A DNA stretch of 32,486 bases from a virus. Made by a program: the position numbers and the translations under genes. Below are positions 2,927-29,214 of the stretch, in pieces. The first letter of the stretch is position 1. Each line of letters opens with the position of its first letter. Location: the IMG/VR virus record IMGVR_UViG_3300042154_001940, positions 1-32,486 of that record; one strand, given 5' to 3'. The notes beneath the pieces are model-generated. The model did not search any database. It was not told the DNA's origin and was given only the letters and a program-made list of their open reading frames with translations.

Positions 2927-4719
2927 TTCTTTAACCCTCCTTTGTTTGGCATATCAATTGGTCGCACTTTTGCTTTATTCCATGCTGGTGGACTAAATGG
3001 TACCCCATCTTTATTAGCCTCTGAATTTTCTACTTCATTGTAATTTTTTAAATCTCTAAAACCTCCAATCTCGTTTGGTTGGATAGGCATAATTTTACCT
3101 TTAATTTGTTTTCGCCTAAATGTTAACCTCTCCCAATAATGGTGGCAATTAACTCCTCCTTTGAATTTCCAGATTGAATAACTTGATTTGCCAGATGGTG
3201 CAAAGTTTCCGTTTATACCATCATCTCCCATTTCAACAATGTCCTCTCTCCGATAGATAGTTCCAGCCTTTCTGGTTTCTACCATGTCTTTACAAAACAT
3301 TCTGCTTTTACTTTTAAACGAATCTGGGGCATACCTATATCGTATTTTGTAAATACCCTTGTCATCCTCACTCTTGTTCTCTGGGTCTGAATAGGCTTTA
3401 ATTAATTCATGTTTACTCAAGTCCATTTCCGCTACTGAATCAGTAACCGCATGGACATCTATCAATTCCCATTCCTCATCATCATTAATTTCTCCTTTGC
3501 TACTTAAATGTTCTTTCCACGAATTCTCATCATGCTCACACATTTCTATATGGTCATCTGAAAATTGTCTACGAGAATAACTCATAGTCTGGCTTATTGG
3601 TTCTGTAGCAATTGTTGTATCTGCAAGAGGATTTAATGGTTTAAAATACAATTCTAATGCAACATTTTGGTATGCTAATATTTCCTCCATTGCAACAATT
3701 AATAGTTCTTGAAATGGCTTTATAACCATATTTTCAAAAAGAACCATAGATGTTTTTAACTCATCTGCGTTACTTGAAAATCCATTTGCTACATTTTTAA
3801 TACCAAAAATTAATGGACTTGTAATTCCATGAGCAACTAAAACCTTATCTTGAGATTCTGTTGACATAAATTGATATTGGTTATGTGCATCTGATAATGG
3901 CACAGGAGTAATATCTGCCTTTGATTCTGCGTTCTCGTTCCAACTAATAATTGCCTTTCCAGAATTTGAACTACCACTCCATTTGTTTAGTATTGCATTT
4001 TCTATTAATGTTTTAGTTTCCTCTGGCGGTTCTCCATTGTTAAAATTAATTAACATGCTTGGTGCCAGACCATTTTTTATATTGTTAATATGATAGTTTC
4101 CTATCTCACATTCAAGTTCCGCATATTGCAGTCCACCTTGATAATCTACAGGGCTAAAATAAAACGAACCTGTTGAATATGGATGTACTACCAAAACACT
4201 CTCTTGTGCCTCTGGGGAATATTCAAAATTTAATATTCTTTTTGGAACATCTGTTCTTTTTAATTTACTCCAATCATAAAAATAATAATATGCCTCAATC
4301 TCTCCATTCTCGTTACATTTTTCTGGTCTTAAAGTTTGCATTGGAAAATGATACACTTTTGCAATCCTTGTTTTGTCTTTTGATTTAACAATTTGAAAAG
4401 CACATTGTCCTAACATCTTTAAATCCATTGCAGTATTGCGTAGACAATCTGGGCTGAATAGCTTTTTTAATTCTACATAGCCACTTAAATTTTTATTTGA
4501 TTGAATAGCATCAATACCCTTTCCGTAGATTAAATCTGCTATCCCTTTAATACATCTATTATTTGTAGGGCTACCTTGATACATATCAATTAAATGACCA
4601 TAGTAATTATTGTCTTCTCCATATTCAACCCAATTTTTATTAGGTTTTTCAATTATTAAAGGAGATGTATATGTAGAAAGACTTACTACCCCTACTTTGT
4701 TATTTATATTGTTAGCCAT
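2923..4719 (-). CDS. Portal protein with C-terminal extension
   Basis: 598 aa. Residues about 25-370 look like a portal: an early NRCIKGIADLIYGKG helix, a long stem region, DKVLVAHGITSPLIFGI near 291-307, and the stretch GFSSNADELKTSMVLFENMVIKPFQ (about 313-336), where portals of this type contact neighbouring subunits. The portal forms the 12-mer vertex for DNA entry. About 220 residues follow, with a distinct block at 455-540 (IRYRYAP...FCKDM...IYRREDI...IWKFKGGVNCHHYW) that is seen in other Bacteroidetes phage head proteins but has no function known to me. Portals are usually 400-500 aa, so this is a long, possibly fused form. It sits after the capsid and tail-tube genes, not beside terminase. 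Confidence 0.8.
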   Translation of the reverse strand: MANNINNKVGVVSLSTYTSPLIIEKPNKNWVEYGEDNNYYGHLIDMYQGSPTNNRCIKGIADLIYGKGIDAIQSNKNLSGYVELKKLFSPDCLRNTAMDLKMLGQCAFQIVKSKDKTRIAKVYHFPMQTLRPEKCNENGEIEAYYYFYDWSKLKRTDVPKRILNFEYSPEAQESVLVVHPYSTGSFYFSPVDYQGGLQYAELECEIGNYHINNIKNGLAPSMLINFNNGEPPEETKTLIENAILNKWSGSSNSGKAIISWNENAESKADITPVPLSDAHNQYQFMSTESQDKVLVAHGITSPLIFGIKNVANGFSSNADELKTSMVLFENMVIKPFQELLIVAMEEILAYQNVALELYFKPLNPLADTTIATEPISQTMSYSRRQFSDDHIEMCEHDENSWKEHLSSKGEINDDEEWELIDVHAVTDSVAEMDLSKHELIKAYSDPENKSEDDKGIYKIRYRYAPDSFKSKSRMFCKDMVETRKAGTIYRREDIVEMGDDGINGNFAPSGKSSYSIWKFKGGVNCHHYWERLTFRRKQIKGKIMPIQPNEIGGFRDLKNYNEVENSEANKDGVPFSPPAWNKAKVRPIDMPNKGGLKK

Positions 4720-19641: not shown

Positions 19642-19975
19642 GTATTATTTTTACAATGATTGGTTCGTTATCCGCTCCTGTTATTTCATGCCTTTCAACA
19701 TATCCTCTATTTCTACCTTTGGTTTTTAAATAAAAAATAGTAGCCGAAGTATTCTTGTCCTTAATTTGATTTAATAAACTTGTCTCTGCAAAATCCAATG
19801 AAATATCTTGTAATTCATTTACTGCTTTTTTATACTCGGCATCCTCATTTAACCAAAAATAATGTTGTGCACGAGATAGGTTTGCTCTTTTACATGCGGA
19901 AGTTACAACTCCTAAACTTTGCTCCAATTCCTCCAGCATTTTTTTTTTGTTCTTTATAGTTGTTTCATTAGCCAT
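19625..19975 (-). CDS. terS: Terminase small subunit
   Basis: 116 aa. N-terminal helix-turn-helix (EELEQSLGVVTSACKRANLS, then RAQHYFWLNEDAEYKKAV) that recognises viral DNA, followed by an oligomerisation helix (DISLDFAETSLLNQIKDKN) and a short C-terminal strand likely to touch the large subunit. It is upstream of and overlaps the large-subunit gene. The GYVERHEITGADN tail is a common ending in phage small terminases. Confidence 0.85.
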   Translation of the reverse strand: MANETTIKNKKKMLEELEQSLGVVTSACKRANLSRAQHYFWLNEDAEYKKAVNELQDISLDFAETSLLNQIKDKNTSATIFYLKTKGRNRGYVERHEITGADNEPIIVKIIHGNKD

Positions 19976-20543
19976 CTAATTTGTCCTCCAATTCTCCTCT
20001 GTCTAAATAAATTGGTTCACCGCAATGTGGACATGGAATCTCAACTATGGTTCTATTATTATTACCAGCCTCATCAAACTGCCCTTTTAGTTTTCCCTCT
20101 TGCTTATGCACCTCTATTGAATCAATAGGGGTAATTTTTTGCCCTACTGATTCATTGAAAAACGAATTTAAGTCCAAATCTGGAAAGAAATCTTGCATAC
20201 CATCTATGTCTTTAATCTCTCTCAATTCCTGTTCTAACAATTCGGTATCCCAATTTGCAAGTTCTGATAATTTATTGTCAGCTATCCTATACTCTTTTAC
20301 TTTCTGTTCATTTAAATCAGTTATGATGCAAGTTACCTTTTCGTATTTAAGTTGTAATAAAGCTTTGTATCTGGCATGACCTGTTATTAATACATAATTT
20401 TTGTCTACAACTAATGGTACATTAAATCCATATTGAGTAATTGATTTTTTTAAGGCATCAATTGTTGCACTATTATCTCGTGCATTCCTCCAATAAGGTT
20501 TTATTTTAACTAATGCTACTTCCTCTATTTTATTTGCTTTCAT
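19968..20543 (-). CDS. ParB-like nuclease-fold protein with C-terminal CxxC
   Basis: 191 aa from the ATG at 20543; the longer frame to 20606 overlaps the upstream gene heavily. ParB/Srx-like N-domain: IKPYWRNARDN, DALKKSITQYGFNVPLVVD, then VLITGHARYKALLQL (the G-H-x-R signature), and YRIADNKLSELANWD. The C-terminus has CPHCGEPIYLDRGE, a half zinc ribbon. Such proteins sit just upstream of phage terminases and are sometimes fused to DNA methylases; here there is no methylase. Possible roles are DNA binding, nuclease or NTP-dependent clamp. It overlaps terS by 8 bases. Confidence 0.75.
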   Translation of the reverse strand: MKANKIEEVALVKIKPYWRNARDNSATIDALKKSITQYGFNVPLVVDKNYVLITGHARYKALLQLKYEKVTCIITDLNEQKVKEYRIADNKLSELANWDTELLEQELREIKDIDGMQDFFPDLDLNSFFNESVGQKITPIDSIEVHKQEGKLKGQFDEAGNNNRTIVEIPCPHCGEPIYLDRGELEDKLDG

Positions 20544-21171
20544 AGTTTTGTCTAATTTTAACTTGCTTGTGGGTTTCCCATGATTTTTTATACTCTGCAT
20601 TTTCAAATAATTTACTAAATCCTGTTATATGTTTTAATCTTAATAACTCATCTGGTTCCATTCCGAGTTCATTACAAATGTTCTCATCCTCCCAGCCATT
20701 GTCTAACATTGCAAATACCATGCTTGACATTCCAGATACTGAATGTTTTCCCCTTGCTCTATTATGCCTTACTGTACTTGCCATTCGGTCATTAATATCT
20801 TTTTGGATAACTACTATGGGTACATTGCCATTGTTCCTATCTAAAATATCCTTATTGGTTTTAGTAGTAAAATATCTGTGAAATCCATCTACAATAATAT
20901 ATTTGTCTAACTCCTCATCATAGATAGTTACTATTGGTTGTGTAAAGCCATCATGCAAAATACTTGTATACAATAGCCTCATTTCATTTTTGGCTACTGA
21001 ATTAGGATTATAGTCATTGGCTTGTACTTTCTCTATTGGCACCCATCGTACAAAATCAATTGGCTGGGTATTAAGTTGGCTTAATTCTTTATGTAACCAT
21101 TCTCTTAATTGGTATACAAATGCATCTTTGTTTTCTGCTTTGGAAAACTCCTTTTTAATTATATCAAACAT
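20530..21171 (-). CDS. IbrB-like ParB/sulfiredoxin-fold protein
   Basis: 213 aa. ParB/Srx domain: FVRWVPIEKVQANDYNPN, LLYTSILHDGFTQPIV, IIVDGFHRY (G-F-H-R signature), then the family-specific RHNRARGKHSVSGMSSMV, GMEPDELLRLKHITG and a Lys-rich end. This matches IbrB, the partner of IbrA, in my recollection. IbrA/IbrB activate immunoglobulin-binding protein genes in some E. coli; their biochemistry is unclear. Here it overlaps the IbrA-like gene by 8 bases, so the pair is kept together. DNA sulfur modification or gene regulation are the possible roles. Confidence 0.8.
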   Translation of the reverse strand: MFDIIKKEFSKAENKDAFVYQLREWLHKELSQLNTQPIDFVRWVPIEKVQANDYNPNSVAKNEMRLLYTSILHDGFTQPIVTIYDEELDKYIIVDGFHRYFTTKTNKDILDRNNGNVPIVVIQKDINDRMASTVRHNRARGKHSVSGMSSMVFAMLDNGWEDENICNELGMEPDELLRLKHITGFSKLFENAEYKKSWETHKQVKIRQNYESK

Positions 21172-22273
21172 TTTCTTTAAGTTTTAATTTCTTTCGTACT
21201 TCATAGCATTCCTTACTTCTATCAAAATTGGATAGTTTTGTGTGCCATGTGTCATTTGCTATTAATGTTTGACAATGAACTTTAAACATCTTGTTTCCCA
21301 TATCGGTTTCATATATTGCCTCCTGTTGCAGAAATGCTTTACGAAACTCCTCTCGGTCTTTATCGTTCTGGATTAATTTGTCTAACAGATAATCTCGGTA
21401 CTCTTTCCAGTCTGCAAACATATATGGTAATTCATATACAAAGAAGTTTTTTGCTCCAGCCTTAACCGCACTATCTATTCCTGTAATCCTAATACATAAT
21501 TTATTATATGTATCTGGTTCTATTTCTGCCATATAAAACAATTGATGTATTGCAGTTTCATGATGCAAATTTGATATACGCATCTTGTTTACTGTTATGC
21601 CATGCTGGTATTGGTAGTCATATATTTTATTGTAAACTAATTTATTCTCATGTATATATTTCCATACATCTGTATAGGACCAATCATAGATAGGGTAGAA
21701 ATTATAATGCTCATTTCCGCTTTTTAGTTTCTTTCCCCAAGTTACCCATTTATATGTTGCAGCATTTGTTAACCCTAATAATCGTGCTGGGCTTTCCTCT
21801 CCTCGTACTCCAGCTATGTGACAAGCCTTTTGATTTGGGTAATAATGTTTCATGAAATCTGGAAAGAAGTCGTAGAAAATATCTGTTGCAAATGGCACCG
21901 AATGAATTGTATTAGGTTCTTTCTCTCGTAGCCACTCTTCTCCCTCTCCCCAACAATGTACATATCCCTCAAATTGACTTGTAGCATTTTCAATTTTAAT
22001 AGGAACTTGAAACCACAATGGTTCTACCTCTGGCATTTTCATAATTGTCCTAACATAAGAAATAGTATTTTCCCATTCTGCCTCTTGGTCAAGAAATAAT
22101 ACTTTTAATGGAAGTCTATTTCTTTCTTTGGCTACATGCAATGCAAGTTGAAATACAATAGTTGAATCTTTGCCTCCAGATATGTTTACAATAATATTAT
22201 CAAACTCATCAAATAGGAAACGCATTCTATCTAATCCAGCCTCAAGTACATTTTTTTTAGAGTATAATTTCAT
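21164..22273 (-). CDS. IbrA-like PAPS-reductase-family protein
   Basis: 369 aa. PP-loop ATP-pyrophosphatase motif SGGKDST at 32-38, then LKVLFLDQEAEWENT (family strand and Asp/Glu cluster), HCWGEGEEWL, AGVRGEESPAR and IYDWSYTDVWKYI, which is the layout of the phosphoadenosine phosphosulfate reductase family with a DUF3440-type C-terminal half (IbrA). True PAPS reductases have a C-terminal ECGxHx2 motif with a catalytic Cys; it is absent, so sulfate reduction is unlikely. The enzyme probably adenylates and/or transfers a sulfur- or nucleotide-containing group. Coupled to a 44-aa gene by ATGA and to the IbrB-like gene. Confidence 0.85.
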   Translation of the reverse strand: MKLYSKKNVLEAGLDRMRFLFDEFDNIIVNISGGKDSTIVFQLALHVAKERNRLPLKVLFLDQEAEWENTISYVRTIMKMPEVEPLWFQVPIKIENATSQFEGYVHCWGEGEEWLREKEPNTIHSVPFATDIFYDFFPDFMKHYYPNQKACHIAGVRGEESPARLLGLTNAATYKWVTWGKKLKSGNEHYNFYPIYDWSYTDVWKYIHENKLVYNKIYDYQYQHGITVNKMRISNLHHETAIHQLFYMAEIEPDTYNKLCIRITGIDSAVKAGAKNFFVYELPYMFADWKEYRDYLLDKLIQNDKDREEFRKAFLQQEAIYETDMGNKMFKVHCQTLIANDTWHTKLSNFDRSKECYEVRKKLKLKENV

Positions 22274-26898: not shown

Positions 26899-27549
26899 TT
26901 ATTTATTGTCTAATAATTTTCTAAAATGAATATAACAAGCAGTAAAATTTATCTCGTGTACATCTGGGTATTTAATGGGCATTATCATTTTACCTTTAGG
27001 TTTTTGATTTTCTATGTTATCTCTCCTCCTCCTATAACCAAGTAGCCATTGCATAGCATTGTTGCAATCTTTTTTTGTAATATTTATGTCTTTTGATTTT
27101 AATAATTGCTCACCATGTATTTCCATGAGTCTGGGAATTAATTTGGTTCCTCCATGATGTGCCTCAACAAAATGAGTATAGGTAAGGTCAAATGATTCTA
27201 AATTCAATTTATGCTTTTGTTCCTCTGTCATTGGAGGTGCAATATTCTGAATTAATTTGGGTGTCTTATATTCAATCTTATGACCAAATATGGATATATA
27301 GTTACGCATCAATTGTGAAAGGAAATGCGAGTTTATCTTTATTGGTTTACGAAAATCTGTTTGCCCAGATAAAAATAAGTCAAAGGCTTTAGTCATGCAT
27401 TCAATTGGTAATCTCCTAAATGTAAGCCTAAAAAATTCTACTGTTTGCTTGGTTAATTCTGGAGGTTGAATATCCGCCATTACGCATAATCTTTGAATCT
27501 CGTTACCAATTTCTTGGTTATCTGTATCCTCTATGTATTGTGTTTCCAT
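26899..27549 (-). CDS. Candidate helicase loader / replication partner protein
   Basis: 216 aa from the ATG at 27549, which overlaps the initiator stop (TAATG). A helical N-domain (LTKQTVEFFRLTFRRLPIEC, MTKAFDLFLSG) and a C-terminal part (CNNAMQWLLGYRRRRDN, KGKMIMPIKYPDVHEIN). Placed straight after an initiator that contains the origin, it takes the position of lambda P-like or DnaC-like helicase loaders; no Walker A is present, as in lambda P. The function is inferred from synteny. No helicase gene is seen, so the host DnaB is probably recruited. Confidence 0.5.
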   Translation of the reverse strand: METQYIEDTDNQEIGNEIQRLCVMADIQPPELTKQTVEFFRLTFRRLPIECMTKAFDLFLSGQTDFRKPIKINSHFLSQLMRNYISIFGHKIEYKTPKLIQNIAPPMTEEQKHKLNLESFDLTYTHFVEAHHGGTKLIPRLMEIHGEQLLKSKDINITKKDCNNAMQWLLGYRRRRDNIENQKPKGKMIMPIKYPDVHEINFTACYIHFRKLLDNK

Positions 27550-28250
27550 TAGTTCCAATCTATTAATGTTTTGGTTAAATCCTTTTTAGTATTTAAATAT
27601 GGCAAATCATCTTCGTATCTCCTTTGTCTAATATAGGTAGTTAGATGCGGCAAGAATTCCAATTTATTGTTTTGCTTGTGATTCTCTATATAAGTTGGCA
27701 AATGCGTTCTAATAGCCTCTAAATCGTTTTTATTTAATTTATGAAATAAAGCATGGCTTGTTTTTTTATTACCCCTCTTTCCGTAAAATTCCCAGATTTC
27801 ATTAAATATATTATCTACTTTATCTATATCTTTATTATTACTATATATATTTATATCTATATCTCCGCAAATTTGCGGATAGGGTATCTGCAAATCTGCG
27901 GATAGGGGTATATCATTGTTTGCGGATAGGGTATCCGCATCCTTGCGGATAGGTATACTCATCAATGCGGATAGGGGATAAATTTTTCTGGATACAATTT
28001 GGTTATTAGAATCTCGTACAATCTCTCGTTTGATATATCCTCCTGTTTCAAGATTATTAAGTACTCTGCCTATCTTGTCAGTTGAGCAATTAAAGAACTC
28101 CTCCAGCATCTTGTTGCTTGGGTATGCGTAGCCATCTCTCTTCGCTAAACTAATAAGTAATCCCATCATTATGCAGTCTGTCGGATTAAGTGTTTCCATG
28201 AGATGACTTGGAAACATAATAAAATAATTTGGTTTATCGGATTTTTCCAT
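27549..28250 (-). CDS. Replication initiator (O-like, winged-helix) containing the origin
   Basis: 233 aa. N-terminal winged-helix HTH (NPTDCIMMGLLISLAKRDGY, then SNKMLEEFFNCSTDKIGRVL, NNLETGGYIKREIVRD) as in lambda O and phage replisome organisers. The middle (about 90-130) is a Ser/Pro/Ile linker encoded by the five iterons. The C-terminal part (LPTYIENHKQNNKLEFLPHLTTYIRQRRYEDDLPY) is the conserved partner-binding end. The protein should bind the iterons in its own gene and load the downstream partner (27549). It is 68 bases below a terminator, with a weaker promoter at 28274-28302. Confidence 0.8.
   Translation of the reverse strand: MEKSDKPNYFIMFPSHLMETLNPTDCIMMGLLISLAKRDGYAYPSNKMLEEFFNCSTDKIGRVLNNLETGGYIKREIVRDSNNQIVSRKIYPLSALMSIPIRKDADTLSANNDIPLSADLQIPYPQICGDIDINIYSNNKDIDKVDNIFNEIWEFYGKRGNKKTSHALFHKLNKNDLEAIRTHLPTYIENHKQNNKLEFLPHLTTYIRQRRYEDDLPYLNTKKDLTKTLIDWN
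27800..27980. other. Candidate replication origin (iterons plus AT-rich unwinding element)
   Basis: Inside the initiator gene, as in lambda ori within O. The iteron block (27865-27980) borders an almost pure A/T tract at 27800-27863 with repeated TTATCTATATC/TTATATCTATATC, which suits duplex opening. The initiator and its presumed loader are encoded around it. Evidence is structural only. Confidence 0.75.
27874..27980. repeat. Five iterons TGCGGATAGGGTAT spaced 22-24 bp
   Basis: On the plus strand: 27874-27887 (TGCGGATAGGGTAT), 27897-27911 (one extra G), 27921-27934 (exact), 27944-27956 (one G fewer), 27966-27980 (TGCGGATAGGGGATA). Start-to-start distances are 23, 24, 23 and 22, about two helical turns, so all copies face the same side of the DNA. 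As these spacings are not multiples of three, the copies are read in different frames and encode different residues, so the DNA sequence itself is under selection. Two exact palindromes overlap them: CCGCAAATTTGCGG (27865-27878) and ATCCGCA-TCCT-TGCGGAT (27933-27950). Confidence 0.9.
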
Positions 28251-28345: not shown

Positions 28346-28774
28346 TGCTTTTGGCTTTCCTAATTTTACATAAGCAGCGGTTCCAATGAATCTGGCTGGT
28401 TCTATAAGTTCCCCATCATTGCTTACAACATTCTGGTTTATCTTTTGTGCCTTTGCAGATGCTTGTGCACCTAATTCAAGTGCTTTGAGTTCCGCTTTTT
28501 TATTTACCCATTCTGGAATATGGTCATAAGAATATCTCCCACCTCCCTCTATTATGTCTACATGGTAGCCATCAAAATCTTGTTTATTCCATTTAGCTGA
28601 CTCCTCCAGAATAGATTGTTTATATGTCTCATCAAATCCATCTATCATAGTAGTAATGTCTTTAAAGGCAATTTTAACAGATAATGGATTATATGTTGCA
28701 TCCTCTGTTAAATCGTAAATATCAATTAACTCCCTAATGATATTGTTTACTTTATCTTTTAATTGTATACTCAT
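28343..28774 (-). CDS. Hypothetical protein paired with SSB
   Basis: 143 aa. Helical N-terminus (DKVNNIIRELIDIYDLTEDATY), middle SILEESAKWNKQDFDGYHVDIIE, and an Ala/Lys/Gln-rich linker (AQASAKAQKINQN) before a short C-terminal segment. Its start shares a base with the SSB stop (TAATG), so it is made with SSB. No family recognised. A replication or recombination accessory role follows only from the neighbour. Confidence 0.6.
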   Translation of the reverse strand: MSIQLKDKVNNIIRELIDIYDLTEDATYNPLSVKIAFKDITTMIDGFDETYKQSILEESAKWNKQDFDGYHVDIIEGGGRYSYDHIPEWVNKKAELKALELGAQASAKAQKINQNVVSNDGELIEPARFIGTAAYVKLGKPKA

Positions 28775-29214
28775 TAGAAAGGTAAATCATCCTCGCTTTT
28801 AGTCTTGTTAATTAAATCCTTCCCCTCCATTACATAAGCCTCAAAATGTTTTGAGTATTCAATAATTTTGTCCATAGGAATTTTTCCAGCTACAACCAAA
28901 TCAGTAGATGCCTTAAGTACACTCATTCGTGTTATCTTAAGTTCTTTCTCTGGGTCAGCTACTCTCGGAGTAAATGATGGCTTTGTTTCTACAGGCTTAA
29001 TTCTGTAAAATGTTTTGCCATTGTAATCCTTACCCTCAATTGTGTAAGTAGCATCTTGTCCAAGTTTAAATTTGCTTTGGTCTTGGGTTTTGCTCATGTA
29101 CTCTCCAATGTCATTGTTTTCCATGCCTACCTCAAATTTGTAGAATGTTCCGTACTGTGGGGATTCCCATGTTCCGTTCCCAGCTATGTGGGTTACTTTG
29201 CTTGTCTTTTCCAT
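28774..29214 (-). CDS. ssb: Single-stranded DNA-binding protein (phage SSB)
   Basis: 146 aa. The beta-rich N-terminal half (GTWESPQYGTFYKFEVGMEN, then GQDATYTIEGKDYNGKTFYRI) fits an OB-type fold, and the C-terminus ends in an acidic linker plus DDLPF, the SSB tail that recruits replication proteins. It would coat single-stranded DNA during phage replication. The internal helix (residues about 90-130) makes it longer than a minimal OB fold. Overlaps the small HTH gene by 22 bases. Confidence 0.75.
   Translation of the reverse strand: MEKTSKVTHIAGNGTWESPQYGTFYKFEVGMENNDIGEYMSKTQDQSKFKLGQDATYTIEGKDYNGKTFYRIKPVETKPSFTPRVADPEKELKITRMSVLKASTDLVVAGKIPMDKIIEYSKHFEAYVMEGKDLINKTKSEDDLPF

Follow-up and report, generated by a model that had tools for sequence, protein, structure and literature searches.

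The locus considered here, a replication initiator gene in a phage genome, carries within its coding sequence five near-identical copies of a short DNA sequence and thereby raises the question of whether these copies serve as the replication origin of the phage, as binding sites with a regulatory role, as a repeat of the encoded protein, or have no function at all. In the window, by which we mean the complete stretch of 32,486 nucleotides that was analysed, the repeats very probably represent the phage replication origin, located in the linker-coding part of the phage's own initiator gene and bound by the initiator. The features on which this reading draws are given below, with positions in the window and with iterons numbered in gene order.

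26899..27558, reverse strand: gene directly downstream of the initiator gene, 219 aa, overlapping the initiator end
27549..28250, reverse strand: replication initiator gene, 233 aa (PF13730, PHROG 270, AlphaFold model)
27803..27862, no strand assigned: A/T-rich stretch adjoining iteron 5 (90% A+T over 60 bp), proposed DNA unwinding element
27862..27881, reverse strand: iteron 5, TATCCGCAAATTTGCGGAGA; holds the palindrome CCGCAAATTTGCGG of the original prediction at 27865-27878
27885..27904, reverse strand: iteron 4, TATCCGCAGATTTGCAGATA
27909..27928, reverse strand: iteron 3, TATCCGCAAACAATGATATA, right arm mostly lost
27932..27951, reverse strand: iteron 2, TATCCGCAAGGATGCGGATA, perfect 8-bp arms, the second palindrome of the original prediction
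27954..27973, reverse strand: iteron 1, TATCCGCATTGATGAGTATA
28044..28082, reverse strand: codons for residues 57-69, the predicted recognition helix (helix of the AlphaFold model)
28774..29214, reverse strand: small early gene upstream of the initiator gene; order kept in the relatives L004 and L016

Inside the initiator gene, the 10-mer TGCGGATAGG, which reads CCTATCCGCA on the coding strand, occurs five times at 27862-27973, with start-to-start steps of 22, 23, 24, and 23 bp in gene order. Five near-identical copies with steps of 23, 24, 23, and 22 bp had been predicted, and this was borne out by the repeat count and by shuffling, with the near-match count of the iteron reached by 0 of 100 dinucleotide shuffles; the 14-mer unit proposed at the same time, TGCGGATAGGGTAT, is exact in only two of the five copies, and it is the 10-mer that is invariant. 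When the entire window (32.5 kb) was scanned for spaced arrays, this site ranked first, with a score of 45 versus 27 for the runner-up. The iteron unit is a 20-bp imperfect dyad, TATCCGCA-N4-TGCGGATA, in which 6, 8, 3, 7, and 7 of 8 arm positions are paired in iterons 1 through 5, respectively; the two palindromes that had been described as overlapping the repeats are real, but they are two of the best-preserved 20-bp dyads rather than separate elements. Likewise, the adjoining tract, described earlier as A/T-only, contains Cs (in TATC). Its A/T-richness is matched by only 23 of 32,426 60-bp segments; 40- and 50-bp segments richer in A/T occur elsewhere in the phage.

With regard to other signals, GC skew shows just a dip toward zero at the array, with no change of sign, no DnaA-box-like 9-mers were found in the window, and literature word searches for the iteron octamer returned unrelated papers only. 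Single TGCGGATA/TATCCGCA octamers are present at 824, 2499, 7997, 9364, 9638, and 18840; their number is high relative to composition-matched octamers, yet equal to Markov expectation, and additional origin sites elsewhere in the window were rejected on this basis. At 1430-1480, within an ORF at 1430-1645, three TCCCCAATT copies 24 bp apart encode NWGxTT peptide repeats and hence represent, unlike the origin array, an in-frame protein repeat.

The protein encoded by the repeat-bearing gene matches PF13730 (HTH_36) in Pfam with E=3e-10 and 40 bits (cut-off 25), which places it in this family, and matches PHROG 270, replication initiation protein, with E=5e-22. Its AlphaFold model has a winged helix at the N-terminus (residues 17-92, pLDDT about 80-90), then a disordered linker (residues 98-139), which for the most part matches the iteron-coding part, and a helical domain at the C-terminus (residues 145-209). 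The best fold matches of the modelled winged helix were the RepA_N plasmid initiators 4pql, 4pt7, and 5kbj, which include a Rep-DNA complex (Z 10.2 and 9.1); the top match (Z 10.2, 99 residues, 4.7 Å) is to be read against the many generic winged helices that score mostly 8-9 and are thus only slightly behind. Sequence searches found no match to PF06970 (RepA_N) or to PF04492 (lambda O) at E up to 0.1, and weak matches to O-like families in PHROGs (E about 1e-4).

Origins located inside initiator genes are already known from lambda O, SPP1 gp38, TP901-1, pSK41, and pPR9. In lambda, the gene O iterons are annotated and footprinted and lie inside the initiator gene (PMC7466680); our array algorithm, when applied to lambda gene O, identified a significant array at the annotated iterons, with steps of 20, 24, and 23 bp as compared to 22, 23, 24, and 23 bp by the same method in the window. 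Both arrays are located just past the DNA-binding domain and consist of dyads around an A-tract (ATCCCTCAAAACGAGGGA in lambda), with A/T-rich DNA on the 3' side. Lambda differs in having four iterons of other sequence rather than five, and in that the loader gene P adjoins O, whereas the neighbouring gene in the window is without a family match. The lambda ori-in-O layout that had been proposed for this locus thus applies to the geometry (i.e., spacing, A-tract dyads, and A/T-rich side), but not to the protein, which is not PF04492 by Pfam. SPP1 gp38/oriL combines direct repeats in the initiator gene with an A/T-rich unwinding element (PMC6316719), as does the window with its in-gene repeats and A/T-rich stretch; SPP1 differs in having a second origin as well as known loader and helicase genes. 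TP901-1 ORF13 binds direct repeats in its own gene, which act as origin (PMC8965321), and the replisome organizer ORF16 of Tuc2009 has an in-gene direct-repeat origin according to its record annotation; both phages have an experimentally assigned origin inside the initiator gene, the location predicted for that of the window. The TP901-1 initiator gene showed no clear 22-24-bp array (score 15, 54/200 permutations), and the array in that of Tuc2009 was not clearly above chance (score 18, 5/200 permutations); the 22-24-bp dyad array is therefore a trait of lambda-like and HTH_36 initiators rather than of every in-gene origin.

Among plasmids, the RepA_N plasmid pSK41 has its origin in a dispensable, linker-coding part of rep (PMC5703833), and the hybrid Rep of pPR9, which carries a phage-like pfam13730 N-terminal domain, supports autonomous replication (PMC5703833). 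These systems share with the window a winged-helix N-terminal domain, an origin, in the window a probable one, located in the central linker-coding part, and a separate C-terminal domain; RepA_N differs in that the window protein is without a PF06970 match and belongs to a phage rather than a plasmid. Among phages, the PHROG 270 proteins of Erysipelothrix phage SE-1, Staphylococcus phage 77, and Cellulophaga phage phi39:1 have the same domain order as the window protein, and their genes, like that of the window, carry in-gene arrays, with 21-24-bp spacing. SE-1 shares the CCTATCCGCA core, while iteron spelling otherwise differs in most HTH_36 phages, whose initiators are about 30% or less identical to the window protein.

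Three close relatives were found in IMG/VR, including L003 (97% identical) and L004 (71% protein identity), and these allowed the comparison of repeat number and spacing that the original prediction had proposed. L004 keeps both and also all of the core bases, with changes in the spacers and in the linker peptide: 0 of 50 core bases changed between the window and L004, as compared to 157 of 594 in the gene outside the array. At codons with a conserved amino acid, synonymous third positions changed at 0 of 18 sites in cores and at 45 of 131 elsewhere (Fisher p=0.0017). In the comparison with L003, 10 of 52 positions changed in the spacers between cores, versus 10 of 600 in the rest of the gene; because the L003 spacers change while the rest of the gene hardly does, the linker appears nearly free to vary while the cores are frozen. 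The earlier claim that the DNA rather than the peptide is conserved was thus right, given cores without synonymous change and a variable linker peptide. We also observed a roughly tenfold faster rate of change in the iteron spacers (L003 3717-3830 versus window 27862-27975) than in the rest of the gene, which suggests repeat turnover or recombination inside the origin. A more distant relative, L016 (41% identical, with shared neighbouring genes), has at the same place an array of other spelling, CACCTCAAA, with steps of 22, 24, and 22 bp.

A DNA-only scan of IMG/VR, blind to protein, for two CCTATCCGCA copies 21-25 bp apart identified eight loci, i.e., the three known close relatives, three distant HTH initiators (L006, L009, and L010) with an array at the same gene position as in the window, and two unrelated tandem repeats (L005 and L008). 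A longer single-copy pattern recovered more array-bearing initiators (L078, L079, and that of Erysipelothrix phage SE-1, L076) as well as unrelated single matches. As a specificity control, the iteron-pair pattern was searched for in 85,000 bacterial and archaeal genomes; essentially all of the 40 loci found were Pro/Gln-coding or intergenic tandem repeats. The pattern by itself is unspecific, and its occurrence in phage initiator genes is specific. Around position 4116 (reverse strand) of L037, a Bacteroides MAG, three 23-bp-spaced CCTATCCGCAAGTGTTGAGGAT copies are intergenic and lie outside an initiator gene.

For the family as a whole, a set of 68 initiators was drawn from IMG/VR and from GenBank phages, with N-terminal parts sharing less than 85% identity, and the 240 nt that follow the winged-helix codons were searched for arrays, with 60 codon permutations of the same stretch as control. 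An array of at least three copies that scored above all 60 permutations was found in 47 of these 68 non-redundant initiators, about a third being without a significant array by this measure. A score of 24 was reached by 49 linkers and by no N-terminal or equal-sized C-terminal control part. Steps of 22, 23, or 24 bp accounted for 136 of the 150 steps in 51 arrays. Iteron sequences vary widely among HTH_36 phages, yet in 43 of 51 genes the iterons are dyads whose arms flank a short centre, frequently an A-tract. The 60-bp segment that follows an array exceeds the mean A/T content of its gene in 49 of the 51 relatives with an array (p=2e-9).

Spelling of the iteron half-sites varies together with the recognition helix, in which D58 and R62 of the window protein correspond to positions 4 and 8, one helical turn apart. 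Genes with the same residue at position 4 have more similar half-sites both among 50 genes and among 30 genes with a divergence of at least 40% outside the helix (p=0.00025 in each case, the floor of the covariation test); for position 8, the corresponding values are p=0.00025 and p=0.019. In a replication set of 48 further non-redundant genes, fetched afterwards, 39 of which have an array, covariation with the half-site was seen again for both position 4 and position 8 (p=0.0003 each), and half-site similarity between new and earlier genes is 0.47 with the same position-4 residue and 0.34 otherwise (p=3e-8). An aspartate at position 4 goes with CCGC in most genes, including the window with its D58, an arginine with GAC or GAA, and a valine with TTAA; helix positions 2, 5, 7, 10, 11, and 12 were significant in one or both sets, mostly with smaller effects. 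Because shared ancestry was reduced rather than removed, this covariation is a strong lead and not a proof; it suggests that two protein positions go along with the spelling of the signal across about 80 related genes. We consider the chances about even that, in HTH_36 phage initiators, a short code, mainly at helix positions 4 and 8, sets half-site spelling. With the protein and its DNA site both contained in one gene, origin specificity of a phage could then be readable from the initiator gene alone, and, if the code is true, a residue swap at positions 4 and 8 should swap the origin.

Binding sites alone would account for both the DNA-level conservation and the covariation with the recognition helix, and SPP1 gp38 is known to bind two separate regions (PMC6316719); the repeats might hence be initiator sites mainly for control of transcription, copy number, or incompatibility, with replication starting elsewhere (cf. 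the second origin of SPP1). We regard this reading as unlikely, as the sites occupy a mid-gene position and not the promoter, an A/T-rich stretch follows them across the family, and the window has no second array of comparable score, its single TGCGGATA octamers being at Markov expectation. Conservation for the sake of the peptide, with the repeats being protein repeats or a low-complexity linker, could be suggested by their location in a repetitive-looking linker but is highly improbable: 118 of the 150 array steps in the family are not multiples of 3, the linker is predicted to be disordered, and the peptide between the synonymously unchanged cores varies. In the window, the copies encode, in gene order, LSA, IRK, LSA, LSA, and YPQ, such that the same DNA is read in all three frames; the frame change at each step that had been claimed does not hold, with three copies sharing one frame. 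There is similarly next to no probability that the repeats are a recently expanded tandem repeat without function, the chance repeats L005 and L008 and the coding or intergenic repeats among the genome matches of the iteron pair being outweighed by identical repeat number and spacing at 71% protein identity, by spacers that diverged around unchanged cores, and by the presence of equally placed arrays in distant initiators.

For the repeats as a replication origin, we infer from known systems how initiator binding, unwinding, helicase recruitment, and origin activity would proceed. The winged-helix N-terminal domain, probably as a dimer, would bind each 20-bp dyad; five bound units, spaced by about two helical turns (22-24 bp), would wrap the DNA into a nucleoprotein complex as in lambda, and the strain of wrapping would open the A/T-rich stretch (90% A+T) adjoining iteron 5. 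The replicative helicase may then be brought in by the C-terminal domain, either alone or together with the product of the next gene. This downstream gene is a natural candidate for a helicase loader; it adjoins the initiator gene in L004 and L016 as well, is kept in relatives down to 31% identity, and lies where several other phages have a gene for a helicase loader or helicase. Searches of Pfam, PHROGs, NCBIfam, and PDB sequences with the 219-aa protein, aimed at an SPP1 G39P-like helicase loader, gave no match, and its model (pLDDT 59) yielded no usable fold match; no gene of the phage could be assigned as helicase or loader.

With regard to the host, the best named terminase matches are to Flavobacterium and Bacteroides phages, at about 38%, and one tail protein matches Nonlabens phages only, which makes the earlier assignment to a Bacteroidetes phage plausible. 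Near the terminase genes, two genes with ParB_N domains lie beside a PAPS-reductase/DUF3440 gene (19968-22273), possibly a DNA-modification or nucleotide-metabolism cassette.

Beyond the arrangement already known, these results add the regularity of the layout across the family and the covariation between recognition helix and iterons. For an uncultured phage, probably of Bacteroidota, they provide a specific candidate origin, and within one large phage initiator family, they indicate that origins are commonly embedded in the linker-coding part. Since every such gene encodes a DNA-binding protein and also contains the site for it, the HTH_36 family represents a ready-made data set for studying DNA reading by winged helices and the divergence of phage origins into compatibility groups.
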